This document shows, one piece after another, positions 2,202 to 49,851 of a stretch of DNA of 64,000 nucleotides (its first letter is position 1; every line of letters starts with the position of its first letter). The stretch comes from Cellulophaga algicola DSM 14237 (GTDB lineage Bacteria; Bacteroidota; Bacteroidia; Flavobacteriales; Flavobacteriaceae). Location: positions 3,038,001-3,102,000 of the forward strand of contig NC_014934.1 of assembly GCF_000186265.1 (NCBI RefSeq), in the 5' to 3' direction. The notes under the pieces are model-generated. The model was not told where the DNA came from, made no database searches, and worked only from the letters and a program-made list of their open reading frames with translations. Made by a program: the position numbers and the translations under genes.

Positions 2202-4364
2202 ATGCAGAGACCATTCGCGAAATATTTTTTGTCAACACTAGTAGTTTTGTTGGTAAGCTTTTCGGCAGTTGCTCAAAAATTCACAACACATGCTGTGAAA
2301 AAAGGAGAAACTATTCATAGTATTTCTACACAGTATAAAACAACTCCTGAACGTATTTTAAATCTGAATAAGGAAATAAAGAATGTAGCGGAATTAAAAC
2401 CGAATACCATCTTGATTATTCCTTTAGACGCTAAAGCGGCAGATTCAAAAGGGGTTACGGTAAAAACTACGGCTGGTAATGGTACAGATGAAAGTAAAAG
2501 TATCATTATTGTACAAGAGGAGCCAACGAGTTTTATATCTTATAAAGTAAAGAGAAAAGATAATCTTTTTCGTTTATCAGAAAAATTTGATGTAAGTCAA
2601 GATGCGATAAAAAAATACAATAAAGAGTTGTATTCTGTGCAACTTAAAAAAGGAATGACTTTGAAAATTCCTAAGTTTAAAAAGATGAAACCAGAAGATA
2701 ATCCTTTTGATAATGGTCTTTTTGAAATGTATACGGTAAAACCAAAGGAAACTAGATGGTCTATCGTTAATAAATACGGTATTACAATTGATAGTCTTTT
2801 GGTGCTTAATCCGGACTTATCTAAACTAGATACCTATTTGGCCTCTGGTCAGGAGTTGCGTTTGCCTAAAAAAGCGGGGAGTACTATTGCAGATCAAACT
2901 TCACAACTATTTATTTCTTATACCGTTCCTCCTAAAAAAGGATTTTATGCTATTGAAAAAGAATTTGGAGCTACAGAAGCAGAGATTAAGGCATTAAACC
3001 CTGAAGTAAAAGATAGAGGATTGCAAGAAGGGATGGTCATTAGAATACCACAGAAAAAAACAGATAAAAAGTCTGTTAATACAGAGAACTTTAATTTTTA
3101 TGAAGTTAAACAAGGCGAAGGAGAATATTCTTTAAATAGAAAACTAGGCCTATCTTACAAAGAATTGCTGGCGTTAAACCCTGAGCTTCAAAATGGACTA
3201 AAAGCTGGAATGGTTTTAAAAATCCCAAAAGATAGCAATGGCGATTTTGAAGTGAAAAATTCCTTGATAATAGAAAACGTAGACCTTGTTAGTAAAATGA
3301 ATCTTTCTACAAAGCCTAACTTGGTGTTTTTATTACCGTTTAGATTGGATATGATAAATGTTGATAATAAATCTTCAGCAAGCGATGCCATTGTTAAAAG
3401 AAAGGATGCTAATTATAGTTTGGGTTTATATAGTGGTGCATTAGTTGCCTTAGATTCTATAAAAAAATTAGGGCTTACAGTGAATGTTTCTGTTTTTGAT
3501 ACTGAGAAAAGTGTCGAAAAAACTAGAGCATTATTGGCTAAGCCAGAACTTAAAAATGCGGATGCTGTAATAGGTCCTTTAGATTCTCAGTCATTACAAG
3601 AGGTTGCGGTACGTGTCGGTCAAAACCAAATTCCGGTAATAGCTCCGTTACCAGCTAAAAGCGATATTAGTCTTTCTAATGTATTTTATACCGTACCTTC
3701 TGATACCGATTTGATGAAGCATATGTTTTCTTATGTAAAAGAAAATGTAGGAACCGAAAATATAGTGGTTATCGCTGATGATGAGCATAAAGCAACAAAG
3801 GAATTGATTGTTAAAGAATTTCCAAATGCAAAGTCTTTACAATTGGTAGAGAAATATGCAATGAAAAATAAGATTGTAGCTTTACTCTCTTCTAGTCAAG
3901 AGAATTGGGTTTTCTTAGAAACAGATCAGTTAAACACTATTAATAGTGTAATTTCTGTATTGAATGCTTCTATTACAGATAAAAGAAAAATTCGTGTATT
4001 TACCACGAATAAAGGAAAAGCTTTTGATAGTGATAAAATAAACCATACGCATCTTTCTTATTTATCATTCACTTACCCTTCTGTTGATGGAGAAGATAAA
4101 AATGATTCTTTTGAGTCAGCTTATAAGAGAATGAATAAAGGGAAATCTCCAGATAAATTTGCACGTAGAGGTTTTGATATTACGTTTGATGTTTTATTGA
4201 AATTAGCGTACAAACAGAATCTTTTTGAGGCTTCAAAGTTTGTTGGAGAAACAAAATACAGTGCTAATAAGTTTAATTATACAAGAGAGGGTGCTGCAGG
4301 TTACCGTAATCACTCTAGTTATATTATGGCTTATGATGAGATGTGGATAAAACAATTAGATTAA
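2202..4364 (+). CDS. Secreted protein with five LysM-like repeats and a C-terminal periplasmic-binding (PBP1-like) domain
   Basis: A 720-residue exported protein. A Sec signal peptide is seen at 1-24 (hydrophobic LVVLLVSFSAVAQ, cleavage near AVAQ-K). Five LysM-type repeats follow at roughly 28-74, 113-158, 176-224, 238-286 and 299-343; each starts with a (Y/H)xVKxxE-like strand and ends in a basic I-P such as LIIP, LKIP or LRLP. LysM repeats bind peptidoglycan. From about 370 the chain changes to alternating segments such as LVFLLPFRLDM and ADAVIGPLDSQSLQEVA, resembling the type 1 periplasmic-binding fold of amino-acid receptors. This domain pairing is common in flavobacteria, with no defined role known to me. 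Its TAA is 2 nt before the OsmC-family gene, so the two are probably co-transcribed. Confidence 0.85.
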   Translation: MQRPFAKYFLSTLVVLLVSFSAVAQKFTTHAVKKGETIHSISTQYKTTPERILNLNKEIKNVAELKPNTILIIPLDAKAADSKGVTVKTTAGNGTDESKSIIIVQEEPTSFISYKVKRKDNLFRLSEKFDVSQDAIKKYNKELYSVQLKKGMTLKIPKFKKMKPEDNPFDNGLFEMYTVKPKETRWSIVNKYGITIDSLLVLNPDLSKLDTYLASGQELRLPKKAGSTIADQTSQLFISYTVPPKKGFYAIEKEFGATEAEIKALNPEVKDRGLQEGMVIRIPQKKTDKKSVNTENFNFYEVKQGEGEYSLNRKLGLSYKELLALNPELQNGLKAGMVLKIPKDSNGDFEVKNSLIIENVDLVSKMNLSTKPNLVFLLPFRLDMINVDNKSSASDAIVKRKDANYSLGLYSGALVALDSIKKLGLTVNVSVFDTEKSVEKTRALLAKPELKNADAVIGPLDSQSLQEVAVRVGQNQIPVIAPLPAKSDISLSNVFYTVPSDTDLMKHMFSYVKENVGTENIVVIADDEHKATKELIVKEFPNAKSLQLVEKYAMKNKIVALLSSSQENWVFLETDQLNTINSVISVLNASITDKRKIRVFTTNKGKAFDSDKINHTHLSYLSFTYPSVDGEDKNDSFESAYKRMNKGKSPDKFARRGFDITFDVLLKLAYKQNLFEASKFVGETKYSANKFNYTREGAAGYRNHSSYIMAYDEMWIKQLD

Positions 4365-26597: not shown

Positions 26598-27556
26598 TAG
26601 AGGTCAGTAGCTAACTTCGTATCTTGATACTCAGTAAATATATTAAATTATGGATATTTTCAAGGGTCAAAATCTTCTAGAGTTCTCTGATTGCTTCAAA
26701 ACGGACAATGATTGCAAAGAATATTTAGCAAATATTAAGTCTAAAACCCCTTTTAAATGTTCTAGATGCAATCATATAGCCTGTCAAACACGTGCTGATT
26801 TCTCTAGGCAATGTAATATTTGTAGACATACAGAATCCGCAACAGCAGATACATTATTTCACAAGGTAAAGTTTGGTGTTCGCAAAGCATTTTTTATTTG
26901 TTTTGAGATGGCTACAAGCACGAAAAGCTTATCTGCAAGTTATATGGGAGTACGTTACGGAGTAACAGAAAAAACAGCTAGACTTTTTATGCTTAAGGTC
27001 AGAGAAGCTATGTCTTCGAGTGGGAATAATCCTATGGACGGAGTTGTTCATGTAGATGAATTTGTTTTAGGGGGCAGAGAAGAAACAAAAGTTGGCAGAA
27101 GCTACAATGCTAAGAAAAAGAAGGCGGTTACAGCTGTTCAGCTTACAGAAGATGGAAAGGTAAAAAGAATGTATGCTATGAAAATAGATGATTTTTCAGC
27201 ACAATCCTTACAATATATTTTTGTCAACCATATCAGCCGAAACGCAAAGATTACTACAGATAAATGGAGAGGCTATAGTCCTATTGCAAAGGCTTACGAC
27301 ATCACACAAATAGAAAGTAATGGAGGGTTAAATTTTAAAGCGCTTCATACAATGATACATCAGGTTAAATCTTGGATAAGAACAACTTATTCTTGGGTTA
27401 GTGACAATAATTTAAATAGATATTTCAATGAATTTTGTTTTAGAATAAGCAGATCTCAAAGTAAAGCTACAATATTCAATAATCTTATTGTTAAAATGGT
27501 CAATAATGATAAAATCAATCAAGCTGAATTAATAAGTAATTAACTACTGACCTCTA
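26598..27556 (+). mobile_element. Complete IS1595-family insertion sequence, 959 bp
   Basis: The ends are imperfect terminal inverted repeats: the left end reads TAGAGGTCAGTAGCTAA (26598-26614) and the reverse complement of the right end reads TAGAGGTCAGTAGTTAA, one mismatch in 17. Directly outside is an 8-bp direct repeat, TTAAATTT at 26590-26597 and 27557-27564, the target-site duplication length expected for IS1595. It holds one intact transposase gene. The preserved duplication and intact frame suggest a recent insertion. It lies 46 nt upstream of the M23 peptidase start codon, so it may affect that gene's expression. Confidence 0.93.
26650..27543 (+). CDS. IS1595-family transposase (ISXO2-like DDE domain)
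   Basis: A 297-residue transposase. The N-terminal zinc ribbon is visible (CSRCNHIACQ...CNICRH, about residues 38-60), followed by a helix-turn-helix-like region with ATSTKSLSASYMGVRYGVTEKTARL. The DDE-type ISXO2 catalytic domain follows, with VVHVDEFVLGGREE (first Asp), TTDKWRGYSP (second Asp) and WIRTTYSWVSDNNLNRYFNEFCFRIS near the C-terminus, in which the catalytic Glu is expected. Length is normal and no frameshift is seen. Confidence 0.92.
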   Translation: MDIFKGQNLLEFSDCFKTDNDCKEYLANIKSKTPFKCSRCNHIACQTRADFSRQCNICRHTESATADTLFHKVKFGVRKAFFICFEMATSTKSLSASYMGVRYGVTEKTARLFMLKVREAMSSSGNNPMDGVVHVDEFVLGGREETKVGRSYNAKKKKAVTAVQLTEDGKVKRMYAMKIDDFSAQSLQYIFVNHISRNAKITTDKWRGYSPIAKAYDITQIESNGGLNFKALHTMIHQVKSWIRTTYSWVSDNNLNRYFNEFCFRISRSQSKATIFNNLIVKMVNNDKINQAELISN

Positions 27557-28293: not shown

Positions 28294-28968
28294 CATCGGT
28301 AAAATACCGATAATTACGATGATAGAATTTTGAAGTAAAAACCGTTATCGGATAAAAATCTGCTTACATCTAGATAATCCCCAGTCACCGATAGTTAAAT
28401 GGTATTGGGCGAGAATCGACGAAATACGCTTTAGCTTGGTAGTATCTTTACAGTATAATACACAAGTCATGAAAACTATCTTAACTATTTTATTTGTTCT
28501 TTTTATCGGTCTATTTGCTCAAGCACAAGATGCTAAAGCAGAAGTAAAGGTAGCTGCACAAGTAGAAAGTGTTGTTTTAGTTTCTTCAACAATAGAAGCT
28601 ACATTAAATAGTAACGAAACTAAAGTTGCTCGTTTATACATGGATAGAAATTATAAAGTAAAAAAGCCTTGTCTTTTTACACAAAAGCAAACAAAACTAA
28701 ATTAGCATAATTTTACTTGATCCATACGTTATATAATTCACGTACATCTTTATAGTTTTTTTTGCATAGAATCTTCTCTTCTCCGTATCATTTAATTTAC
28801 CTCTTTATTATTTAGTATTTGTTTTTAGCGCTATGTGCTTTGAACTTAATTTTTTATTACTAGAAGAACGTGTCTCAAGTACGCTATTCTAAAAGATATG
28901 GTATTAGTTACTTTTTCTCTGCTATATGTATTCTGCTGATGTAGCTATGGAAAAGACATATTTGTAAT
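28294..28968 (+). repeat. Tandem repeat unit 1 (675 bp) with a small secreted protein gene
   Basis: First of three tandem near-identical units. It comprises a 175-nt leader (28294-28468), a small gene and a 263-nt tail. The leader opens with the hairpin ATCGGTA / TACCGAT and has further ACCGTTATCGG and CACCGATAG motifs. The 263-nt tail (28706-28968) holds no gene that I can support. Only scattered differences separate it from unit 2. Confidence 0.9.
28469..28705 (+). CDS. Small secreted protein, array copy 1 (C-terminal frameshift)
   Basis: A 78-residue protein with a clear Sec signal peptide (MKTILTILFVLFIGLFAQA, cleavage before QDAKAE). The mature part ends KVARLYMDRNYKVKKP. The A-run after KV has six A's (GTAAAAAAG) where copies 2 and 3 have seven, so the last 15-17 residues are read in another frame (PCLFTQKQTKLN instead of ALSFYTKANKTKLA). 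The start ATG follows the conserved TATCTTTA element by 18 nt. Small flavobacterial proteins with a similar (V)ARLY...VKK.L.F.TK tail exist to my knowledge, but none has an assigned function. Confidence 0.75.
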   Translation: MKTILTILFVLFIGLFAQAQDAKAEVKVAAQVESVVLVSSTIEATLNSNETKVARLYMDRNYKVKKPCLFTQKQTKLN

Positions 28969-29644
28969 CATCGGTAAAATACCGATAATTACGGTGATAA
29001 AATTTAGTAGTAAAAACCGTTATCGGATAAAAATCTGCTTACATCTAGATAATCCCCAGTCGCCGATAGTTAAATGGTATTGGGCGAGAATCGACGAAAT
29101 ACGCTTTAGCTTGGTAGTATCTTTACAGTATAATACACAAGTCATGAAAACTATCTTAACTATTTTATTTGTTCTTTTTATCGGTCTATTTGCTCAAGCA
29201 CAAGATGCTAAAGCAGAAGTAAAGGTAGCTGCACAAGTAGAAAGTGTTGTTTTAGTTTCTTCAACAATAGAAGCTACATTAAATAGTAACGAAACTAAAG
29301 TTGCTCGTTTATACATGGATAGAAATTATAAAGTAAAAAAAGCCTTGTCTTTTTACACAAAAGCAAACAAAACTAAATTAGCATAATTTTACTTGATCCA
29401 TACGTTATATAATTCACGTACATCTTTAAAGTTTTTTTTGCATAGAATCTTCTCTTCTCCGTATCATTTAATTTACCTCTTTATTATTTAGTATTTGTTT
29501 TTAGCGCTATGTGCTTTGAACTTAATTTTTTATTACTAGAAGAACGTGTCTCAAGTACGCTATTCTAAAAGATATGGTATTAGTTACTTTTTCTCTGCTA
29601 TATGTATTCTGCTGATGTGGCTATGGAAAATACATACTTGTAAT
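28969..29644 (+). repeat. Tandem repeat unit 2 (676 bp)
   Basis: Second unit: leader 28969-29143, gene 29144-29386, tail 29387-29644. It differs from unit 1 at a few positions only (for example the ATT-ACG-GTG leader variant and the extra A in the coding A-run). The tail is nearly identical to the unit 1 tail and contains no supported gene. Confidence 0.9.
29144..29386 (+). CDS. Small secreted protein, array copy 2
   Basis: An 80-residue full-length member of the array family. The signal peptide and mature sequence are identical to copy 1 up to the A-run, then continue ALSFYTKANKTKLA. The mature protein (about 60 residues) is basic at its C-terminus, has no cysteine, and is predicted to be released to the periplasm or exterior. 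Frame reads through from upstream, but the ATG at 29144 begins the signal peptide and sits 18 nt after TATCTTTA, so I take it as the start. Confidence 0.8.
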   Translation: MKTILTILFVLFIGLFAQAQDAKAEVKVAAQVESVVLVSSTIEATLNSNETKVARLYMDRNYKVKKALSFYTKANKTKLA

Positions 29645-30062
29645 CATCGGTAAAATACCGATAATTACGATGATAGAATTTTGAAGTAAAAACCGTTATC
29701 GGATAAAAATCTGCTTACATCTAGATAATTCCCAGTCACCGATAGTTAAATGGTATTGGGCGAGAATCGACGAAATACGCTTTAGCTTGGTAGTATCTTT
29801 ACAGTATAATACACAAGTCATGAAAACTATCTTAACTATTTTATTTGTTCTTTTTATCGGTCTATTTGCTCAAGCACAAGATGCTAAAGTAGAAGTAAAG
29901 GTAGCTGCACAAATAGAAAGTGTTGTTTTAGTTCCTTCAACAATAGAGGCTACATTAAATAGTAGCGAAACTAAAGTTGCTCGTTTATACATGGATAGAA
30001 ATTATAAAGTAAAAAAAGCCTTGTCTTTTTACACAAAAGCAAACAAAACTAAATTAGCATAA
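29645..30062 (+). repeat. Tandem repeat unit 3 (partial: leader and gene, no tail)
   Basis: The third unit matches units 1 and 2 through the leader (29645-29819) and the gene (29820-30062). At the stop codon its sequence changes abruptly, and instead of the shared tail it continues into a small membrane-peptide gene at 30065. Confidence 0.88.
29820..30062 (+). CDS. Small secreted protein, array copy 3
   Basis: An 80-residue member, differing from copy 2 by a few residues (KVEVK, AAQIES, LVPSTIEA, NSSETK). Signal peptide and the C-terminal KVARLYMDRNYKVKKALSF segment are unchanged. The differences fall mostly in the mature N-terminal half, while the C-terminal segment is invariant in all intact copies, suggesting it is the functional part. 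It is followed after 2 nt by a membrane-peptide gene. Confidence 0.8.
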   Translation: MKTILTILFVLFIGLFAQAQDAKVEVKVAAQIESVVLVPSTIEATLNSSETKVARLYMDRNYKVKKALSFYTKANKTKLA

Positions 30063-30064
30063 GT

Positions 30065-30175
30065 ATGGAAGTATCATTAATACTAGTAATAGCTCTTACA
30101 TTCTTTAATATTATAAGGTTAAATATACAGACTACTTCAAAAATGAAAGAGATGTTTGTTGCTATGAAAAAATAA
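30065..30175 (+). CDS. 36-residue membrane peptide downstream of copy 3
   Basis: A short open frame found by reading past copy 3: the ATG at 30065 is 2 nt after that gene's stop, and the frame ends TAA at 30173-30175. The product begins MEVSLILVIALTFFNIIRL, a single hydrophobic helix, followed by a basic tail ending FVAMKK. The same arrangement (2-nt gap, N-terminal hydrophobic helix, basic tail) follows copy 4 with a different sequence, which supports a real gene. A terminator follows at 30216. No function is known. Confidence 0.6.
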   Translation: MEVSLILVIALTFFNIIRLNIQTTSKMKEMFVAMKK

Positions 30176-30215
30176 AGTCACTCCTTAGTAGAGTCTAGTC
30201 TTAAAATAATAGAAT

Positions 30216-30241
30216 AAAAGGTTCCTGAAAAGGAACCTTTT
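30216..30241 (+). terminator. Intrinsic terminator of the copy 3 two-gene unit
   Basis: A 10-bp stem AAAAGGTTCC (30216-30225) / GGAACCTTTT (30232-30241) with loop TGAAAA, 40 nt after the membrane-peptide stop. Confidence 0.85.
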
Positions 30242-30480
30242 ATAGTTTAATAATTAAACCATTTGCAATTGCATTTAGAGGTCTTTTTAGGAGGTTATGG
30301 CTGTTTCCAATACTCATATCAAATTGTACTTTTAGAATCTCTAATATGTTGTAAAAAAGAGAAATAAGGATTCTAGATTGTGCTTGTTGTTTGGAAATTT
30401 AAATGAGTTGTATTTAATTGAATTGTAATAGTTCTCAACATAAAAGATGAATTTTAAACCTTTTATTCGAAATGATGAAA
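30242..30480. other. Spacer between array copies 3 and 4
   Basis: Non-coding as far as I can see. It does not resemble the tails of units 1 and 2. A 25-codon minus-strand frame (30240-30317) is present but is weakly supported. Confidence 0.5.
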
Positions 30481-30662
30481 GGGTAAATACCGATTAACGA
30501 CCTGAAATTACGATGATGCATTTTTAAGTGAATTACCGTTATCGGACAAAGGGTTCTTTACACCCTGATAAAGTTCATTCACCGTTAGATAAATGGTGTT
30601 GGGCGAAAATCGACGAAACGCACTTTAGCTTGGTAGTATCTTTACAGTGTAATATCCAAGTC
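30481..30662 (+). promoter_or_regulatory. Conserved leader of array copy 4
   Basis: It keeps, despite overall divergence, the blocks ATACCGAT, TTACCGTTATCGGA, CACCGTTAG and the 3' block from TTGGGCGA through ACTTTAGCTTGGTAGTATC, TTTACAGT and AAGTC-ATG. TATCTTTA is at 30637-30644, 18 nt before the ATG. Conservation between copy 4 and copies 1-3 of a non-coding stretch of about 180 nt suggests a regulatory role (operator array or structured 5' RNA). Confidence 0.55.
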
Positions 30663-30893
30663 ATGAAAGCAATTGTAACTATTTTATTTGTTCTTTTTAT
30701 CGGTTTATTCGCCCAAGCTCAAGAAGCGAAAGTAGCTACTCAAACAGAAAATGTTGTTTTGGTTGCTCCAACGGTAAAGACTACATTAAATAGTAATGAA
30801 ACTAAGGTTGCACGTTTATATATGGATAGAAACTATAAAGTGAAAAAGGAATTATCTTTTTATACAAAAGCAAACAAAACTAAATTAGCATAA
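30663..30893 (+). CDS. Small secreted protein, diverged array copy 4
   Basis: A 76-residue homologue of the array proteins. Signal peptide MKAIVTILFVLFIGLFAQA, then QEAKVATQTENVVLVAPTVKTTLNSNETKVARLYMDRNYKVKKELSF and the same KANKTKLA end. It is four residues shorter after the signal than copies 2 and 3, and differs at about a quarter of mature positions while keeping the C-terminal segment. This shows that selection maintains that segment. Confidence 0.8.
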   Translation: MKAIVTILFVLFIGLFAQAQEAKVATQTENVVLVAPTVKTTLNSNETKVARLYMDRNYKVKKELSFYTKANKTKLA

Positions 30894-30895
30894 TT

Positions 30896-31015
30896 ATGAT
30901 GGTAACAACTATAGTACTAATAACTTCAATTCCTCTTGTAATTTTATTTTTAAATACCAAACAGAATACAGCTAAACAGTTAAAGACCGTAAAGGTAAAA
31001 GTAACTAAACGTTAA
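30896..31015 (+). CDS. 39-residue membrane peptide downstream of copy 4
   Basis: Short open frame starting 2 nt after the copy 4 stop (tandem ATG codons at 30896 and 30899) and ending TAA at 31013-31015. The product has a hydrophobic helix (TIVLITSIPLVILFL) then a basic tail ending KVKVTKR. Same position, spacing and topology as the peptide after copy 3, but little sequence identity. The convergent histidine kinase gene ends 12 nt downstream. Confidence 0.6.
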   Translation: MMVTTIVLITSIPLVILFLNTKQNTAKQLKTVKVKVTKR

Positions 31016-31027
31016 GTAGCCTATAGT

Positions 31028-32233
31028 TTATGCGATTGGTTGAAAGTTTTGACCAATCTCTTTAAATGTTATAATATAATTGGTTCCTTTTTTAGAGGCA
31101 TCTTTTAAGATAGAACCCTGCAGTTGTCTTGTAAGGTTGTAGATAAGTTTTAATCCCAGAGACGTTGTTGTTTGTGGTGTGATACTTTCTTCATAACCAT
31201 CTCCATTATCACCAATGTTTAAGACGTAATCCTGATCTTCTTGGCCTTTTTTAAGAGCGATACTTATTTCGCCTTCACCATTGTCTTTAATACCATATTT
31301 TAAAGAATTTGTAATGGCTTCATTAATAAGAAGTCCTAATGGGATGGCAGTATCTATTCCAAGATTAATATCTATAATATCAATAGCTACTTTTATTCTA
31401 TTATCAGTTCCTTTTATAGACCGGACTAAGTAATCACTTAATTCCTCTACGTACGACTTGTATTCAATTTTTGATAAGTCTTCACGCATGTACAGCATTT
31501 CATGTACCATAGCCATAGAGTTAACCCTATTCTGGCTACTCTTAATCATTTTTTTCATTTCCTCATCTTTCATGTTTCTTGCTTGTAAACTTAAAAGACT
31601 AGATACGGTTTGCAAATTATTTTTTACACGATGGTGTACTTCTTTAATAAGCGTTTCTTTTTCACGTACTTTTTGTTCGACCTCCATTTTGGATTTGTAC
31701 AAATTATAATGTGTTTTGACCAATATCTTACCAAATACTCCGCCTAGTATATATAAGGAGAAAAGAATACTTATAAAATTAAAGAGATCTTTTGAGTCTT
31801 CAGGAACTACATTCCTAATATAAGGAAGATTTAGAATAGACTGAAAGTAAATTAAGGTAACGATAATGAATGCACAATAGAGGTAAACTTCTCCATAGCG
31901 CTTTGTAGTTACATAGCCAGCAAAAACAACTAAGCCTAAGACAAAAATAAATGCGCTGTTAATACCGCCGCTAAATAAGGTAATAATAATACAGCTAAAT
32001 AAAGTTACAAGTGATGTAACATTATACATCAATGATAAATTTTGATGCTTTTTAAATGCAAAGGTGTTTGCTAGGTTTATAATCGAAAATAAAAAAAACA
32101 CGTACGGAATTACTTCTGTAATCTTTAAAAAGTAAATACATATGAAACCAAACACTAAGGATAGGGCTGATGAGATGTAATTTACTTTTAGAATTAGGTT
32201 TTTTTTGGTTTTAAGGCGTTGTTGGTGAGCCAT
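31028..32233 (-). CDS. Membrane-bound sensor histidine kinase (HisKA_2 type)
   Basis: A 401-residue inner-membrane kinase. The first 180 residues form about six membrane helices with almost no periplasmic loops. A short coiled linker (KMEVEQKVREKETLIKEV) leads to the HisKA_2 phosphoacceptor EVHHRVKNNLQTVSSLLSLQ, followed by a HATPase_c domain with LLINEAITNSLKYG (N box), IGDNGDGYE (G1) and SLGLKLIYNLTRQL (G2). Such HWE/HisKA_2 kinases usually signal to a response regulator, but none is encoded next to it. It is convergent with the small-peptide array; whether they are linked is unknown. Confidence 0.92.
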   Translation of the reverse strand: MAHQQRLKTKKNLILKVNYISSALSLVFGFICIYFLKITEVIPYVFFLFSIINLANTFAFKKHQNLSLMYNVTSLVTLFSCIIITLFSGGINSAFIFVLGLVVFAGYVTTKRYGEVYLYCAFIIVTLIYFQSILNLPYIRNVVPEDSKDLFNFISILFSLYILGGVFGKILVKTHYNLYKSKMEVEQKVREKETLIKEVHHRVKNNLQTVSSLLSLQARNMKDEEMKKMIKSSQNRVNSMAMVHEMLYMREDLSKIEYKSYVEELSDYLVRSIKGTDNRIKVAIDIIDINLGIDTAIPLGLLINEAITNSLKYGIKDNGEGEISIALKKGQEDQDYVLNIGDNGDGYEESITPQTTTSLGLKLIYNLTRQLQGSILKDASKKGTNYIITFKEIGQNFQPIA

Positions 32234-47265: not shown

Positions 47266-47361
47266 TAGGCATATTGCTAAAATGTTAATTCTTATTAATT
47301 ATAGATTAAATCTTCTATTTAAGCTTTTAGTTCCATTGTTTTTTTATAGTTTTACGGAGTA

Positions 47362-47442
47362 AACTTTAGGGGTGTTCCTATTTTTGGAACTGAGACATAC
47401 CCTTTGAACCTGATGCGGTTAGTACCGCCGAAGGGAAAAGTT
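47362..47442 (+). ncRNA. TPP (thiamin) riboswitch
   Basis: The RNA contains the conserved THI core: GGGGTG then CTGAGA, ATACCCTTTGAACCTGAT (P4/P5 junction), GCGGTTAGTACCGC (P5 arm) and GAAGGGAA. P1 forms between AACTTT (47362-47367) and AAAGTT (47437-47442). It lies 130 nt upstream of thiS and controls the thiamin operon in response to TPP. The P3 arm is short (TTCC ... GGAA). Confidence 0.95.
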
Positions 47443-47445
47443 GAA

Positions 47446-47467
47446 AAACACCTTGAAATGGGTGTTT
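47446..47467 (+). promoter_or_regulatory. Probable expression-platform hairpin of the TPP riboswitch
   Basis: AAACACC (47446-47452) pairs with GGTGTTT (47461-47467). The same AACACC could instead pair with GGTGTT inside the riboswitch core (47371-47376), so the two structures would exclude each other. No long T-run follows, so the control might be by another mechanism than simple termination. Confidence 0.45.
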
Positions 47468-49713: not shown

Positions 49714-49736
49714 CTACGCCTTGAAAAAAGGCGTAG
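49714..49736 (+). terminator. Stem-loop between thiC and the downstream ThiE-like gene
   Basis: A 9-bp stem CTACGCCTT (49714-49722) / AAGGCGTAG (49728-49736), without a T-tract. It may slow polymerase or protect the 3' end of the thiC message rather than terminate. Confidence 0.45.
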
Positions 49737-49851
49737 TCGGGCTTTTCGTTATATCTTTTGCGTATTCATGTAATTTTATTTCATTTTACTCCATAAATTT
49801 ACACGAACAGCTAGCAAAAGGATGCCACTGCAATCCCTAACCCAAATAATT

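Follow-up and report, generated by a model that had tools for sequence, protein, structure and literature searches.

Why does the chromosome of Cellulophaga algicola DSM 14237 carry, beside a membrane histidine kinase gene, four tandem copies of a gene for a small, probably exported protein, each behind a similar long stretch of upstream DNA? The array lies at positions 28,294 to 31,015 of a window of 64,000 nucleotides (nt), the whole stretch of DNA analysed (C1:3038001-3102000 of a single 4,888,353-base contig), and an earlier note on this DNA, here the original prediction, had described it as an amplified set of secreted protein genes behind a conserved leader. Our best reading, which we advance tentatively, is that the array specifies a kinase-controlled, multi-copy, exported envelope protein that phages imitate. 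What was computed directly from sequence is the family, its family-restricted operator, the membrane peptide, the linkage to the kinase and the relatives in phages; that the protein is exported, which regulator acts, the effect of dosage, the envelope role and a conflict with phages are inferences.

The array and its protein family

The features of the array, with window coordinates, strand and the basis of each assignment, are the following.

28294..28468, + strand: putative operator/promoter of copy 1, the earlier "leader" (98% identity to the other two; CG half-site pair at -80; profile match)
28469..28705, + strand: family gene copy 1, frameshifted, 78 codons (A-run shorter than in copies 2 and 3)
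28969..29143, + strand: putative operator/promoter of copy 2 (identity over the reference stretch; half-sites)
29144..29386, + strand: family gene copy 2, intact, 80 amino acids (frame and alignment)
29645..29819, + strand: putative operator/promoter of copy 3 (identity over the reference stretch; half-sites)
29820..30062, + strand: family gene copy 3, intact, 80 amino acids (95% identical to copy 2)
30065..30175, + strand: 36-amino-acid membrane peptide following copy 3, of a subtype without KVRV tail that is common to loci L048, L049 and L050
30488..30662, + strand: putative operator/promoter of copy 4 (81% match with the leader of copy 1 across 160 nt)
30663..30893, + strand: family gene copy 4, old paralogue, 76 amino acids (84% identity to copy 2; tree)
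30896..31015, + strand: 39-amino-acid membrane peptide with basic tail, following copy 4
31028..32233, - strand: membrane HisKA_2 histidine kinase (Pfam HisKA_2, E 1.4e-28; about six hydrophobic segments; linkage)

Unit starts are spaced 675, 676 and 843 nt apart along the four copies, and over a 300-nt reference stretch units 1-3 are 98% identical and unit 4 is 70% identical, in agreement with the three nearly identical tandem units originally described. That all three encode the same 80-residue protein proved wrong, as copy 1 has a run of six A against the seven of copies 2 and 3, is out of frame thereafter and yields a product that terminates in KVKKPCLFTQKQTKLN at 78 residues, and copy 3 differs from copy 2 at 4 of 80 residues. 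The frameshift as assembled may be a real mutation or a homopolymer error; a family gene of another genus is likewise broken within its array region, by a TAG stop (L144, G250 C11:301260). The array itself is unlikely to be an assembly artefact, since similar arrays occupy the same place in other Cellulophaga assemblies.

In a tree built from the promoter and gene sequences of five genomes, some of whose deeper forks are weak, copies 1-3 cluster together (100/99), as do the first four copies of genome G010 (86/88). Copy 4 and G010's last copy form one pair (98/97) and the last copies of G016 and G005 another (99/97); a weakly supported group (79/94) unites both pairs with the single gene of G001. 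Because the tree places copy 4 with last copies from elsewhere, apart from copies 1-3, it is best regarded as an older paralogue; the earlier description of a diverged fourth copy whose leader is still recognisable stands (70% for the unit, 81% for the leader), except that the copy is not merely decayed. Copies 1-3, judged by the same sequences, appear to be recent duplicates or to have been homogenised.

The encoded small basic proteins form what appears to be an undescribed family, in which a signal peptide ending in AQA or similar is followed by an acidic, variable linker and then by a basic C-terminus that is conserved (RLYK-x-KN-x-K-x-KK-x-L-x-F). The isoelectric point (pI) is 4.6 for the linker and 10.3 for the last 28 residues of copy 2, and the pI beyond residue 20 is above 9 in 183 of 194 members. 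Export is probable, as predicted by reading the signal peptide. The ratio of nonsynonymous to synonymous substitution rates (dN/dS), determined on 16 genes from four close genomes (95 between-genome pairs), is 0.08 for the signal peptide, 0.24 for the linker and 0.08 for the C-terminus, revealing purifying selection on the frames, the codon-level constraint that the original prediction had named as a check. None of 19 members scanned against Pfam and NCBIfam scored above a curated cut-off (best E 0.0037 and 0.0025, respectively, one member each), the best match among solved structures reached only E 2.1, and a plasmid search for the family gave no matches. No title or abstract listed in the literature searches describes the family, nor do the passages searched in PMC8776804, PMC13288928 and PMC11946311 mention these proteins. 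The earlier characterisation as small proteins with signal peptides and a conserved C-terminus, for which no described function was found, was borne out.

From a larger group, 397 Flavobacteriaceae genomes were sampled; 70 of them, from 41 genera, hold strong family matches (E 4.3e-13 or better), 40 hold weak ones (3.4e-10 to 1e-3) and 287 hold none. The same 70 genomes hold the most similar copy of an unrelated regulator taken as a control (89-100% identity, the others being at or below 83% among the matches listed), and because the two sets coincide, the family is a marker of one clade, present in every sampled member. Its presence throughout the 70 genomes sampled from a marine clade of 41 genera makes it likely that this unnamed family matters to these bacteria. 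The named relatives of the protein come mostly from Cellulophaga, with one from a Maribacter metagenome-assembled genome and one from Prolixibacter (signal peptide portion only). All 18 Cellulophaga genomes sampled, the window genome included, have family members; the main array adjoins an M23 peptidase gene in 15 of the 18 and lies on the secA side in 17, the arrays of L062 and L063 being interrupted by contig ends and the M23 gene being replaced by other genes in L052 and L053. Dosage selection, which the original prediction suggested, may act here; copy number at this home locus ranges from 1 to 5, a spread that birth, death and gene conversion of copies could also produce. The window genome holds three further dispersed relatives, the third without signal peptide. 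Relatives with the C-terminal motif and no signal peptide also lie, by reading, near metG and ferritin-like genes (L073, L076, L084-L087); before counting, part of these six dropped out for want of a called start (four hits), and three were excluded from one alignment.

In many arrays the last family gene is followed by a peptide of 36-39 residues with a single hydrophobic stretch and a basic tail. A profile built from 19 seeds (E<=2e-5) finds matching peptides in 36 of 78 loci, never elsewhere than in the 400 nt that follow a family gene; half of these 36 loci (18) contributed no seed, and many of the other 42 loci consist only of dispersed or cut copies. The linked membrane peptides of the original prediction are hence real frames, at 30065-30175 and 30896-31015, that recur after family genes. 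The last gene of many arrays would thereby additionally yield a single-helix membrane peptide.

The upstream DNA and its candidate regulators

Each gene copy is preceded by DNA in which CG half-sites recur as three pairs in alternating orientation, at about -174/-154 (forward), -122/-103 (reverse) and -81/-60 (forward) from the ATG, and a promoter-like TAnnTTTA/G-like box, which we take to correspond to the flavobacterial -7 motif, lies about 20 nt before the ATG and downstream of all half-sites. Over 193 promoters the CG-CG spacings peak at 20 bp (194 counts) and 21 bp (173 counts), with further peaks between pairs at 26 and 33 bp; motif analysis took 47 of 93 listed upstream regions as input. 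The conserved stretch is partly dyad-symmetric, because the profile derived from it also hits the other strand at those same positions, and as a whole it reads as operator DNA.

This putative operator is specific to the family. A profile made from 58 Cellulophaga upstream regions matches 93 of 107 family genes of other genera (40 stretches, E<=1e-3) and has a single match farther than 260 bp from a family gene, other-strand matches within 260 bp of a family gene being excluded from that count; the reversed-sequence control gave one match, at E 0.075. A second profile, from 194 upstream regions of at least 190 nt (193 unique), matches 187 of 194 family genes, a figure that is partly circular because the profile was made from the same upstreams. 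The seven unmatched genes include the three relatives without signal peptide in this set, the only ones of their kind that could be scored. Across ten other genomes, all 24 sites that match the proximal pair with two or fewer mismatches lie just upstream of family genes, and six sites with three mismatches lie elsewhere, compared with 13 control sites in all; in the window genome the degenerate pattern finds the four array copies and two three-mismatch sites, the control two. We therefore rejected a wider regulon, as close sites occur only at family genes and three-mismatch sites are no more numerous than control sites. An operator so long, regular and family-specific could serve as bait for its regulator.

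The kinase gene at the end of the array is linked to the family in many genera. Its sensor region is matched in 60 of the 70 family-bearing genomes versus 7 of the 327 others. With one kinase gene taken from each of 54 of the 60 genomes that have both, at least 46 have a family gene within 20 kb, among the family genes listed; of the remainder, on the same basis, seven sit on a different contig and one is at a distance of 245 kb. In 11 of 18 Cellulophaga genomes the kinase gene lies between the array and secA, and L062 is cut at that point. Arrays of several genera have the HisKA_2 kinase in two or three adjacent copies beside them (L135, L136, L138, L139, L160).

The window genome contains 14 LytTR genes, of which one was picked for an orthologue count, as its receiver resembled that of a HisKA_2 partner, and one other served as a control. 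The candidate (C1:3892996-3893748) lies about 0.8 Mb from the array, and the gene after it encodes a HisKA_2 kinase (E 3.8e-27) of the same class as the window kinase. Its orthologues (E 4e-83 or better) were found in 70 of 70 family-bearing and 67 of 67 kinase-bearing genomes and in 12 of 327 others. The control LytTR receiver is present in 286 of the 397 genomes, and clade restriction is thus not general for LytTR genes.

These data suggest a scheme in which each copy would be its own transcription unit under a common operator, with three half-site pairs above the -7-like box. The copies would be switched on together by a dedicated regulator with direct repeats as its binding sites, for which the unlinked LytTR response regulator, with its input from HisKA_2 kinases, is the likeliest candidate, and copy number would then set the output.

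Several observations weigh against this scheme. The 70 family genomes are exactly the clade that the control regulator marks, so that the co-occurrence stems from a single clade and represents few independent events; the same holds for the joint occurrence of family, kinase and LytTR regulator, all of which share that clade, and as proof of the LytTR regulator co-occurrence is weakened accordingly. No sensor match occurs in 10 of the 70 genomes that carry the family, and the kinase is missing beside six Cellulophaga arrays (L060, L061, L063-L066). Pairs fitting the LytTR consensus at eight or more of nine positions show just a modest enrichment, occurring in 41 of 193 promoters against a mean of 19.7 and a maximum of 32 in 20 shuffles. 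Finally, the operator has no match in 14 LytTR stretches or seven regulator neighbourhoods. Autoregulation of the regulator was likewise rejected, the operator profile matching none of the fetched LytTR gene stretches.

Phage relatives and alternative readings

The profile of PHROG 26162 matches 16 of 19 family members (E<=0.1, best 8.1e-6) in their C-terminal part, corresponding to residues 50-76 of copy 2. In 50,697 phage records, tblastn with copy 2 gave eight records among the matches listed, all of Cellulophaga baltica phages (E about 5-6), and tblastn with a relative lacking the signal peptide gave eight among the matches listed, all of Maribacter forsetii phages (E 2); neither is significant alone. 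The C. baltica phage proteins are gp19 of phi18:2 and its kin in phi18:1, phi17:1, phi12:1 and phi12:3, small and with signal-peptide-like starts, and the Maribacter phages Colly and Molly encode a 65-residue protein with such a start that contains EVARLYKFKNSRIKKALNFETKK. With the search size set to four million, a profile built from host genes only matched these phage proteins at E 1.3e-9 (Molly), 2.2e-5 and 3.6e-5. A third phage lineage (phiST, phi19:2, phi13:1) matched at E 0.8; the phiST match falls in an unannotated 71-residue open reading frame (ORF; L218:2881-3096) that begins like a signal peptide, contains the family motif and ends in TKLC as does the Molly protein. Only within a small set do the ORFs of phiST and phi13:1 reach about 1.5e-6. 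By these comparisons two lineages are clear and the third, the phiST group, is the weakest. A search of IMG/VR with the family alignment gave no confirmed match, and the phage proteins retrieved from it only contigs that correspond in size to the known phages. The host operator profile had no match in the fetched phage stretches. Colly carries tandem CCGTTTAACGTTTT repeats 21 bp apart at about 2014-2052 of L212 and also at 3299-3337 and 120500-120538 of MT732450, one site preceding the family relative and one a metalloprotease gene.

In our preferred reading the family product would have its role at the cell envelope, and the relatives carried by lytic phages, which infect two or more host genera, would imitate it or interfere with it. 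Since relatives occur in Cellulophaga and Maribacter phages, a role in phage-host contact is testable with existing laboratory phage-host pairs. A bolder version, which we regard as rather unlikely, would make this a core envelope-signalling or defence circuit of the marine clade, with tandem-amplified products and a private six-half-site operator read by HisKA_2/LytTR, the protein having been acquired separately by unrelated lytic phages to hijack or blunt the circuit.

Peptide signalling is an unlikely but live alternative: the exported protein or a fragment of it would be sensed by the linked kinase, the regulator would drive a positive loop in the manner of Agr or Com in Gram-positive bacteria, and the phage proteins would act as decoys. 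A membrane kinase near the genes, a direct-repeat operator and phage relatives are what such a circuit would display; however, it is the C-terminus that is conserved and the linker that drifts, some Cellulophaga retain the genes without a neighbouring kinase, and the regulator gene is unlinked.

Less probable again is receptor shielding, in which a small envelope protein would bind an outer-membrane protein and block phage entry, with phages using their versions for superinfection exclusion. The phage proteins Cor and Llp block phage entry at the outer membrane, and the phage relatives here, with their signal-peptide-like starts, come from lineages that infect family-bearing genera. Yet a cysteine occurs beyond residue 20 in just 7 of 194 members, so most members have no lipoprotein anchor of the Cor/Llp type.

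To much the same low degree we credit duplication without dosage selection, by which copies would arise, be homogenised by gene conversion and decay neutrally. The clustering of copies 1-3 within their genome, like that of the first four G010 copies, the frameshift in copy 1 and the variable copy number all fit such a history, whereas retention with a conserved operator in 70 of 70 clade genomes, often in several copies, does not; moreover, this alternative bears on copy number only and is compatible with the kinase-controlled envelope protein.

That the protein is a bacteriocin or toxin, as the original prediction had allowed, is very improbable: it is small, basic, probably exported and has a variable stretch, but it matches no Pfam or NCBIfam family, its linker too is under purifying selection and its signal is by reading of the Sec type, not a double-glycine leader (no profile search was made for immunity and transporter genes). 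Scarcely credible is a structured leader RNA, to which the length of the conservation and its partial dyad symmetry might point, given that RNAalifold, applied to 47 upstream regions, found 0 consensus base pairs, that Rfam placed no family at the array at its gathering score (sub-threshold matches had E 1.4 or worse) and that the promoter-like box lies so close to the ATG. What persists of the conserved 175-nt leader is therefore the conservation of upstream DNA, with its half-sites upstream of that box, and not a leader in the RNA sense.

Elsewhere in the window, Rfam identified two RNAs.

47358-47453, + strand: thiamine pyrophosphate (TPP) riboswitch (78.6 bits)
49731-49851, - strand: Flavo-1 RNA (45.6 bits)

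An IS1595-family transposase gene (26650-27543) lies between msrA and the M23 peptidase gene and is not at that place in L048, L049 and L050; a near-identical ORF adjoins another LytTR gene of the same genome (L096).

Comparison with known systems

The closest described entity is PHROG 26162, a phage family of unknown function that has the C-terminal motif in common with the host family; it comprises short phage proteins without the host operator, and the full host family is not described there. The Cor and Llp lipoproteins are small envelope proteins encoded by phages, whereas most members here have no lipobox and the family is a large chromosomal one of the host that has an operator of its own. 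The double-glycine leader of class II bacteriocins does not occur in the aligned members, which by reading start with a Sec-type signal peptide.

LytTR-regulated promoters resemble the array promoters in that direct repeats with a spacing of about 21 bp precede the promoter, and differ in that here there are three pairs of alternating orientation with a half-site only weakly like the LytTR consensus. The Agr and Com circuits combine a small exported product (here predicted), a membrane kinase, direct-repeat promoter sites and, possibly here also, a LytTR regulator. Their arrangement of a kinase beside the signal gene is present here, though 6 of 18 Cellulophaga arrays are without it, and their response regulator in the same locus is not, the candidate LytTR gene being about 0.8 Mb away. 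The array further differs from those circuits in its HisKA_2 kinase, its Gram-negative host, a product of about 60 mature residues and its organisation in multi-copy arrays.

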